Positions 31,964-33,953 of a stretch of DNA of 64,000 nt are shown piece by piece. A model generated the notes under the pieces. It saw only the letters and a program-made list of their open reading frames with translations, did not search any database and had not been told where the DNA came from. The stretch comes from Pyxidicoccus trucidator (lineage in GTDB: Bacteria > Myxococcota > Myxococcia > Myxococcales > Myxococcaceae). Position numbers and translations under genes: made by a program. The first letter of the stretch is position 1. Each line of letters opens with the position of its first letter. The stretch spans positions 496,001 through 560,000 of the forward strand of contig NZ_JAAIXZ010000005.1 of assembly GCF_010894435.1 (NCBI RefSeq), in the 5' to 3' direction.

Positions 31964-32734
31964 TCACCCCTCCAGGCCCCACTTCTGGAGGAAGGCTTCA
32001 CGCCAGGTGCGGCTGAGCACCACGGTGGTGCCGTTCTTGAGGACGAGGATGCCGTCCCCGTGCGTCCAGGGCTCCAGCCGCGCCACGGCGTCCAGGTTGA
32101 TGATGTCGCCGCGGTGCACGCGCACGAAGCGCGCGGCGTCCAACCGATCTTCCAGGGCGCGGAGGCTCTGCCGGACCAGGTGCTCGCCCTGGTCGGTGTA
32201 GAGGCGCACGTACTTGTCCTCCGAGGACAGGCGCCAGACGGTGTCCAGGCGCAGCGGCACCCAGGCCTCGCCCACCTTCACCACCAGCCGCTCCAGCGGG
32301 CGCGCGGGCTGGGCGCGGGACAGGTCTTCCAGCAGCGACTGGAGGCGGCCTGTCTCGGGCTGTCCGCCGATCAGCAGCGCGTGGGCCTTGTCGAGCGCCC
32401 TGCCGAAGCGGTCCGCGTCGTAGGGCTTGAGGAGGTAGTCCACCGCGTGCGCGTCGAAGGCCCGGAGGGCGAAGGCGTCGTAGGCGGTGGAGAAGATGAC
32501 GGCGGGGCAGTCCTCCGGGCCGAGCGCCTCCAGCACCTCGAAGCCGGTGAGCCCCGGCATCTGCACGTCGAGCACCAGCAGGTCCGGGCGCAGGGCTCCC
32601 ACGCGCGAGAGGGCTTCCGTTCCGTCCGCTGCCTCGCCCGCGAGGACGAAGCGCGCGTCGTCCGCCAGCAGGCGCTTCACCTTTGCCCGCGCGGGGGCCT
32701 CGTCGTCCACGACCAGCACGCTGAAGCGCTTCAT
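31964..32734 (-). CDS. LytTR-family response regulator
   Basis: A 256-residue regulator. The receiver domain (1-120) has acidic Asp10-Asp11, phospho-acceptor Asp56 (LVLDVQMPG) and Lys103 (YLLKPY). The LytTR DNA-binding domain (about 150-255) shows LSSEDKYVRLYT and FVRVHRGDIINLDAV. The partner is the sensor kinase encoded just upstream. Translation starts in a four-base overlap with the stop of the 30-codon mini-ORF (32731-32734). Confidence 0.93.
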   Translation of the reverse strand: MKRFSVLVVDDEAPARAKVKRLLADDARFVLAGEAADGTEALSRVGALRPDLLVLDVQMPGLTGFEVLEALGPEDCPAVIFSTAYDAFALRAFDAHAVDYLLKPYDADRFGRALDKAHALLIGGQPETGRLQSLLEDLSRAQPARPLERLVVKVGEAWVPLRLDTVWRLSSEDKYVRLYTDQGEHLVRQSLRALEDRLDAARFVRVHRGDIINLDAVARLEPWTHGDGILVLKNGTTVVLSRTWREAFLQKWGLEG

Positions 32735-32756
32735 GCCGCCACCTCACGCGGGAGCC
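32717..32756. repeat. 40-bp direct repeat, copy 1 (copy 2 at 32806-32845)
   Basis: Perfect 40-base identity to 32806-32845, offset 89 bases. The repeat spans the 3' end of the histidine kinase gene and the first six codons of the regulator gene, i.e. the coupling junction itself. The 49 bases between the copies are unique. Confidence 0.95.
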
Positions 32757-32823
32757 GAGGACACGTGCTCACGGGTCGAGCATCGGTCGCTGCATCCATG
32801 GGCCTCACGCTGAAGCGCTTCAT
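32731..32823 (-). CDS. Chimeric 30-codon mini-ORF between kinase and regulator
   Basis: Created by the 89-bp duplication. It begins at ATG 32823, inside the kinase stop (ATGA), with the regulator's own first six residues MKRFSV, runs through a unique stretch, and ends in frame with the kinase's last residues LPREVAA and a TGA (32731-32733) that overlaps the regulator ATG 32734. Both four-base couplings are thus kept. No independent function is expected; it may serve to pass ribosomes from kinase to regulator. Coding status is inferred from the preserved frame only. Confidence 0.6.
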   Translation of the reverse strand: MKRFSVRPMDAATDARPVSTCPRLPREVAA

Positions 32824-33947
32824 GCCGCCACCTCACGCGGGAGCCACAGCGACACCCGTGCACCGCCTTCCGGGCCGCGCCCTCGCTCCATCCTCGCCCG
32901 CCCTCCGTGCAGCAACGCGAGGATGCGCTCCAGGTGCGCCAGCCCCACGCCGGGCCCCGTGGCGGGGGAGGCTTCCGCGAAGCCGCGTCCCGTGTCCTCC
33001 ACCTCCAGCCGCCAGTCCGCCCCGTCCTCGCGAGCGCGGATGCGGACCTCCAGCGGCTCCCTCCGGTCCTGGTTGTGCTTCACCGCGTTCTCCACCAGCG
33101 ACTGCAGCGCGAAGCACGGCACCCGCGCGCCCTCCAGCCCAGGGGCCACGTCCCAGCGCACCGTCACGCGCTCGCCGAACCGGGCTGTCAGCAGCGCGAC
33201 GAAGCGCTCCGCATGGGCACGCTCCTCCGCGAGCGTCCACGTGGCCTCCTTGCGCTCCAGGCTGGCGCGCAACAGCCCGCCCAAATCACTCAGCAGCCGG
33301 TCCGTGCGCTTCAGGTCCTCGTACATCACCGAGCTGATGGTGTTCAGTGCGTTGAAGAGGAAGTGCGGGTGGAGCTGCCCGGTGAGCGCCTGCAGCCGGG
33401 CCTCCCGCAGCTCACTCTCCAGCGTGGCCTCCCGGACGGCTCGCGCCTGCCGCTCCTTCCAGGCGAGCAGGAGGCTCCACAGCGTCGCGCCCACCGAGTA
33501 GAGGATGAGGTCCTTCTGGGCCTCCATGGGAATGCGGAAGACCAGGTCTCCATAGTCATAGGTGCCCAGGTCCAGCAGCGCGTAGAGCGGGTACCTCGGG
33601 GGCACCATCACCAGGATGTGCAGCGTGGTGAAGAGCACGAAGCCCGCCACGTGGACGCCCAGGAAGCGCGCCCAGCCGACGCGGGGCCCGGGCGCGTTGA
33701 CCACCGCCGTCTGTACGACGGGCAGCACGGCCAACGCCGCCAGCGCTCCGGTGAGTTCCCAGACGAACGGCTCCAGCACCGGGATGCTGCCGCCATTGCC
33801 GAGGATGGTGAGGTACACCGTCAGCCCGTTCCACAGCCCCACCCCCAGGAAGAGGCCGAACAGCACCAGCGCGGGGCGCGCACGGATTCGCGGCCACTGC
33901 CAGGGGGCGACGGAGGCCCGAAGGTTCTCGGAGGCACGGGGTGACAT
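32820..33947 (-). CDS. LytS/AlgZ-type sensor histidine kinase
   Basis: A 375-residue membrane kinase with four predicted helices in residues about 25-170. The H-box LTGQLHPHFLFNALNTIS carries the phospho-accepting His in the first His-Pro-His. The N-box LQSLVENAVKHN and glycine loops DTGRGF and GVGLAHL form the ATPase domain. The partner of the LytTR regulator. It starts at ATG 33947, 7 bases past the acyltransferase gene stop, so the three genes plus the mini-ORF form one operon. Confidence 0.92.
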   Translation of the reverse strand: MSPRASENLRASVAPWQWPRIRARPALVLFGLFLGVGLWNGLTVYLTILGNGGSIPVLEPFVWELTGALAALAVLPVVQTAVVNAPGPRVGWARFLGVHVAGFVLFTTLHILVMVPPRYPLYALLDLGTYDYGDLVFRIPMEAQKDLILYSVGATLWSLLLAWKERQARAVREATLESELREARLQALTGQLHPHFLFNALNTISSVMYEDLKRTDRLLSDLGGLLRASLERKEATWTLAEERAHAERFVALLTARFGERVTVRWDVAPGLEGARVPCFALQSLVENAVKHNQDRREPLEVRIRAREDGADWRLEVEDTGRGFAEASPATGPGVGLAHLERILALLHGGRARMERGRGPEGGARVSLWLPREVAA

Positions 33948-33953
33948 GGGCTG

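Follow-up and report, generated by a model that had tools for sequence, protein, structure and literature searches.

We analysed a 64,000-nucleotide (nt) stretch of the Pyxidicoccus trucidator genome (contig NZ_JAAIXZ010000005.1, positions 496,001 to 560,000 of the forward strand), hereafter the window, in which a sensor kinase gene and a response regulator gene are joined by a 30-codon open reading frame (ORF). His_kinase and HATPase_c domains lie beside a receiver-LytTR protein, with Pfam scores above the curated cut-offs, as in LytS/LytTR two-component systems. The mini-ORF overlaps both genes at their stop and start codons, and we use the word relay for an ORF in this position. The features of the locus are as follows.

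32820..33947, minus strand: LytS-type sensor histidine kinase, 375 amino acids (aa), His_kinase (PF06580) and HATPase_c; ORF list, Pfam, orthologues in 46 of 96 family genomes
31964..32734, minus strand: LytTR-type response regulator, 256 aa, Response_reg (PF00072) and LytTR (PF04397); ORF list, Pfam
32731..32823, minus strand: relay mini-ORF of 30 codons, MKRFSVRPMDAATDARPVSTCPRLPREVAA, ATGA overlap with each neighbour; sequence, with a relay of the same kind at this junction in nine other genomes
32806..32845, minus strand: 40-nt perfect junction repeat, upstream copy (true kinase end, mini-ORF start); sequence
32717..32756, minus strand: 40-nt perfect junction repeat, downstream copy (mini-ORF end, true regulator start); sequence
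32757..32805, minus strand: unique filler of 49 nt, open in the relay frame, no second copy found in its own genome; sequence, genome search
32820..32823, minus strand: ATGA, overlap of kinase stop and mini-ORF start; sequence
32731..32734, minus strand: ATGA, overlap of mini-ORF stop and regulator start; sequence
32831..32834, minus strand: GAGG, Shine-Dalgarno-like, 7 nt 5' of the mini-ORF ATG; read from the sequence, function presumed
32742..32745, minus strand: GAGG, Shine-Dalgarno-like, 7 nt 5' of the regulator ATG, copied with the repeat; read from the sequence, function presumed

The initial annotation had described a chimeric 30-codon ORF sharing ATGA with both neighbours, and its coordinates (32823..32731) bear this out: MKRFSVRPMDAATDARPVSTCPRLPREVAA begins as the regulator begins and ends as the kinase ends. 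It had also called the insertion an 89-bp duplication, which needs narrowing. Compared with a plain 4-nt overlap, the junction has gained 89 nt, made up of a 40-nt perfect direct repeat (spacing 89) and 49 unique bases; only the 40 bp are duplicated, and the filler is single-copy. The filler has no stop in the relay frame, as the annotation had stated. When we searched the genome with a 161-nt query around the insert, it matched only itself (E ≤ 0.001).

Exact junction-spanning direct repeats of at least 13 nt were found at 2 of 851 neighbouring co-directional gene pairs (1.9 Mb, three genomes), and the window's repeat is the longer of the two; it is more than a chance match. Inserts at the same junction recur in other assemblies, including the one- or two-contig genomes G010, G014 and G086, which makes misassembly an unlikely origin for inserts in general. 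The regulator start region also contains a palindrome, AAGCGCTT, which is present at window positions 32724-32733 and 32813-32822 and lets the two junction copies pair in a predicted RNA fold. On the other side of the locus, a spacer of just 6 nt (window 33948-33953) separates the kinase start from the end of a gene for a membrane acyltransferase (PF01757), and the acyltransferase, kinase and regulator may form a three-gene operon.

The junction in family genomes

We searched for the kinase in 96 family genomes, 46 of which had a match at E ≤ 1e-60, and placed the kinase stop and regulator start by homology, blind to any relay. The junction comparison proposed in the initial annotation divides these 46 genomes into 36 with a direct overlap and 10 with a relay. 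The direct overlaps are 4 nt long (ATGA or GTGA), except for 8 nt in G029; in this genome (script value +1) and in G034, G092 and G099 (script value -1) the homology start fell a few bases late, and the overlap was taken from the printed sequence. Inserts in the other ten measure 23 nt (G014), 35 (G075), 56 (G086 and G088), 62 (G010), 71 (G078), 74 (G077), 89 (G000, the window), 110 (G005) and 119 nt (G003). All ten are 2 mod 3 in length, and each is open between the NTGA of the kinase stop and that of the regulator start. No junction is uncoupled (0/46): the overlapping stop and start typical of a termination-reinitiation pair are present directly in 36/46 and through an overlapping mini-ORF in 10/46. 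As a refutation of its reading, the annotation had named relatives in which a single plain ATGA overlap goes with a frame free of selection. The simple overlap is indeed the common state, but the frame is kept in 10/10 inserts, and the sequences support the annotation's reading, in which the insert maintains stop/start coupling and the open frame matters.

In G075 the insert arose simply by tandem duplication of 35 bp of the junction and yields MTVFRVLMEARS, a chimera of the window's kind; the same junction is present in a Corallococcus carmarthensis record (L095). In G014 (L020), the 3' part of the 23-nt relay resembles the last kinase codons of a close relative, G009 (L022). Judging from these letters, relay and kinase tail may be interconvertible while the regulator overlap stays in place.

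Relays are scattered among direct relatives in several clades. On the tree of the 46 pairs we counted at least seven changes between the direct and relay states, six of them forced by well-supported branches. Grouping the inserts conservatively by sequence gave five origins: G000 with G010; G005 with G003; G014; G086 with G088, G078 and G077; and G075. The alignment of the window and G010 inserts suggests one origin, yet direct-overlap genomes lie between the two on the tree. Alignments are patchier for this pair and for G086/G077. The closely homologous inserts differ by one 9-nt indel (G005/G003), by one 15-nt indel (G088/G078) or by none (G088/G086), and the frame is kept through these changes in length.

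The peptide is another matter. The G005 and G003 relay ORFs differ at 4, 7 and 3 sites in codon positions 1, 2 and 3, with 2 synonymous and 10 nonsynonymous codons; in the flanking kinase and regulator stretches the corresponding counts are 4/3/16 and 4/0/14. For G088 and G086 the relay counts are 4/5/4, with 1 synonymous and 8 nonsynonymous codons. These relatives' relay ORFs, which stand in for the window's own ORF because that has no close homologue, thus lack the amino-acid selection of a conserved small protein gene, and we rejected a functional peptide on these codon-position data. The length class and open frame hold while most codon differences change an amino acid, and so it is the frame that is maintained, not the peptide.

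Two further records touch this locus. In G008 (L025), which is not one of the 46, the kinase is absent and a nonsense codon interrupts the regulator frame; the pair seems to be decaying together. A record named Comamonas sp. KCTC 72670 (L085, BNCN01000006.1) contains the myxobacterial locus, with a kinase identity of 76% and a junction identical to that of L013, a locus in a genome from the same genus as the window; this record looks misnamed.

Other two-component junctions

Relays are also found at a second junction, where an OmpR-type regulator precedes a HisKA-type kinase (labels from our own reading of the proteins, without a Pfam scan). It was matched in 26 of the 96 genomes; 21 of the 26 have a direct 4-nt overlap and 5 have inserts, all 5 with unbroken chains to the kinase start. 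The inserts of G005 (L274), G011 (L276) and G017 (L277) are 89, 137 and 41 nt long. That of G002 (L257) is 148 nt long and holds two mini-ORFs of 74-nt junction repeats, and that of G003 (L275), at 351 nt, is an array of junction copies in which three mini-ORFs follow one another as a chain.

A third junction belongs to a second kinase/LytTR-type pair of G003, again labelled by reading of the proteins, with orthologues labelled kinase and regulator by phmmer. In G000 and G002 these genes share an 8-nt overlap, ATGGCTGA. G003 has a 106-nt insert here (contig C6 near 110443-110556, stretch L348) with a 37-codon ORF that starts in ATGGCTGA, ends in GTGGCTGA and overlaps both genes by 8 nt. Its length is 1 mod 3, the class that an 8-nt overlap demands, and not 2. 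Though a single case, this junction separates an explanation by coupling from any bias toward class 2.

We then considered how unusual these inserts are. For eight grouped origins at the three junctions, with the window's group excluded, multiplying a 1/3 chance of the right class by a shuffle-based open-frame chance gives 1.8e-5, where the open-frame chance of the third junction was set to 1, G011 and G017 formed one group, and G005 and G003 formed one group at each of two junctions. Length class alone gives 1.5e-4, and an empirical rate of 13/46, taken from the survey of NTGA-flanked gaps given below, yields 4.1e-5. Long inserts occur in three junction families, each of them a two-component pair, against 5 such pairs among 51 families overall (P = 4.8e-4), a concentration noticed after the fact among families from one genomic region.

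A broader view came from about 2.3 Mb around the locus in G000, G002, G010 and G003, with genes called by a simple codon-usage finder. Of 204 junction comparisons, 182 kept the same spacing, 5 had another overlap and 17 had a gap, several of these being later in-frame start choices or weak orthologues as judged by eye. For junctions whose genes overlap in some relative, the script called 131 of 151 ortholog instances in the four genomes direct. Before review it labelled the long gaps as five relays and four without a relay; in three of these four an in-frame start further 5' gives a direct overlap, and the remaining one is the 8-nt-overlap relay, a type that the script did not seek. After hand review, all six real gaps of at least 19 nt are relays: the present junction in G000, G010 and G003, the second in G002 and G003, and the third in G003. 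Inserts are not common everywhere: an argC pair and a hybrid-kinase/NtrC-type-regulator pair, read as controls, had direct overlaps at 30 of 30 loci each and no inserts; these were the best 30 loci for each pair, which were matched in 59 and 96 genomes, respectively.

A probable translational relay and its alternatives

Coupling of translation at gene overlaps is established. Conserved overlaps and length class suggest that translation of the downstream gene depends here on translation of the upstream one, and the mini-ORF is probably a translational relay that preserves coupling by termination and reinitiation. In the ancestral state, a 4-nt overlap of stop and start would have allowed a ribosome ending the kinase to restart on the regulator. 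A local rearrangement, duplication of 40 bp of junction plus a 49-nt filler, then moved the regulator start 89 nt away and should have broken this coupling. Because termination-reinitiation tolerates no more than a very short gap between genes, an insert without a bridging ORF would starve the regulator. With its length of 2 mod 3 and no in-frame stop, the insert could be crossed by a ribosome that finishes the kinase, initiates again on the mini-ORF, terminates precisely at the regulator start and initiates there once more, which is the passage proposed in the initial annotation. A junction duplication would be a ready source of relays since it copies GAGG, stop and start together, after which the length class has to fit and the frame has to be free of stops, but nothing more. 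The peptide would be a by-product, with selection presumably acting on the unbroken chain of overlaps and thus on a supply of regulator proportional to that of the kinase. The recurrence of relays suggests that the link between kinase and regulator is itself under selection.

Several results weigh against this explanation. We found no genome-wide excess of relays in the first three genomes: of 526 co-directional pairs with gaps of 5-200 nt, 46 are flanked by NTGA, with length classes 0, 1 and 2 represented 22, 9 and 15 times, and relay chains reach the next gene in 12 of 506 cases, compared with 8.55 in shuffles. Ortholog gaps shorter than 19 nt are mixed, with two relays and five of seven without one. 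Open frames are common at high GC (a chance of 0.55 to 0.96 per insert given its class), and sorting inserts into independent origins is a matter of judgement. Finally, translation of the mini-ORF is read from sequence, and the regulator has its own GAGG, which makes independent initiation possible.

The most durable alternative, which we nonetheless think rather unlikely, is that relays tune expression: each relay might couple at a lower yield, and gain or loss of mini-ORFs would adjust the kinase:regulator ratio. The variable number of mini-ORFs at the second junction, from one to three, and the concentration of long inserts in two-component pairs are in line with this idea, but plain preservation of coupling explains the same sequences. 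It is improbable that the window's insert is a neutral accident, a recent product of slippage beside a regulator translated from its own Shine-Dalgarno sequence, with a frame left open by luck and high GC. The two 40-nt copies are identical, so the duplication (or a homogenisation) is recent, and both the frequency of open frames at this GC and the missing genome-wide excess fit an accident. What speaks against it is that 10/10 inserts here and 5/5 at the second junction are relays, where each was expected to be one in about 1 of 3 to 1 of 4 cases. A regulatory element, such as an internal promoter or RNA structure that tunes the regulator and makes the open frame secondary, is less probable still. 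The MIRU-holding intergenic region of senX3-regX3 is described as having promoter activity (PMC4213456), and the AAGCGCTT copies pair in the predicted fold. The insert region shows no sigma-70-like promoter or terminator (other promoter types were outside the search), no Rfam match and no unusually stable fold (z = -0.24 against shuffles), and such an element leaves the shared length class unexplained. That the mini-ORF encodes a small functional protein of the two-component pathway is barely credible: a short ORF does occupy the same place in ten genomes, but the peptides are mostly unalike, homologous ones differ chiefly by nonsynonymous changes, and 36/46 genomes have none.

The relay proposed here resembles several known systems. 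Mycobacterial interspersed repetitive units (MIRUs) are reportedly known from the senX3-regX3 operon (work attributed to Supply et al. in 1997). In this two-component operon MIRUs sit between kinase and regulator, as the window insert does (PMC4213456), and a 2025 review describes a MIRU ORF as coupled at -4 at its insertion site (PMC12548453). Both are internal ORFs that overlap the flanking genes at stop and start, in the window by ATGA at both ends. MIRUs, in contrast, are a dispersed, apparently mobile repeat family; inserts of different lineages at our junction are mostly unrelated, and several are local junction duplications. We rejected a dispersed MIRU-like element for the window, whose insert was the only copy found in its own genome.

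The ATGA/GTGA overlaps are those of known termination-reinitiation pairs (PMC10666635, PMC6728339), here occurring twice or more in series; the known pairs overlap directly, whereas here an additional ORF spans an insertion between the two genes. A gap of 38 nt is reported to have cut coupled translation in E. coli by 80-90% for two gene pairs and to have eliminated it for a third (PMC10666635), and short ORFs serving solely to deliver ribosomes are described (PMC12548453). Minigene mg2 of axe-txe, two codons long, is said to stimulate translation of txe (PMC8708949). The window's mini-ORF would likewise be a very short ORF whose translation promotes that of the next gene; unlike mg2, which ends 15 nt short of the txe start, it overlaps a gene at each end. 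None of the titles and abstracts listed by our literature searches describes locally formed relay ORFs in myxobacteria or their length-class signature.

A broader proposal, possible but doubtful, is that local duplications at myxobacterial two-component junctions have given rise, time and again, to chains of one to three relays. Selection would favour such chains as a device for maintaining, and perhaps for grading, the kinase:regulator ratio by successive reinitiation, much like a variable-number repeat. These junctions offer natural, repeated evidence for selection on the coupling of a gene pair, in that long inserts occur where the stop/start chain stays unbroken. Length class (2 mod 3 for 4-nt and 1 mod 3 for 8-nt overlaps) would then be a readout of translational coupling available from sequence alone, and could show in other genomes which gene pairs need to be coupled. 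Some short "intergenic" gaps with tiny ORFs may be functional bridges that annotation omits.
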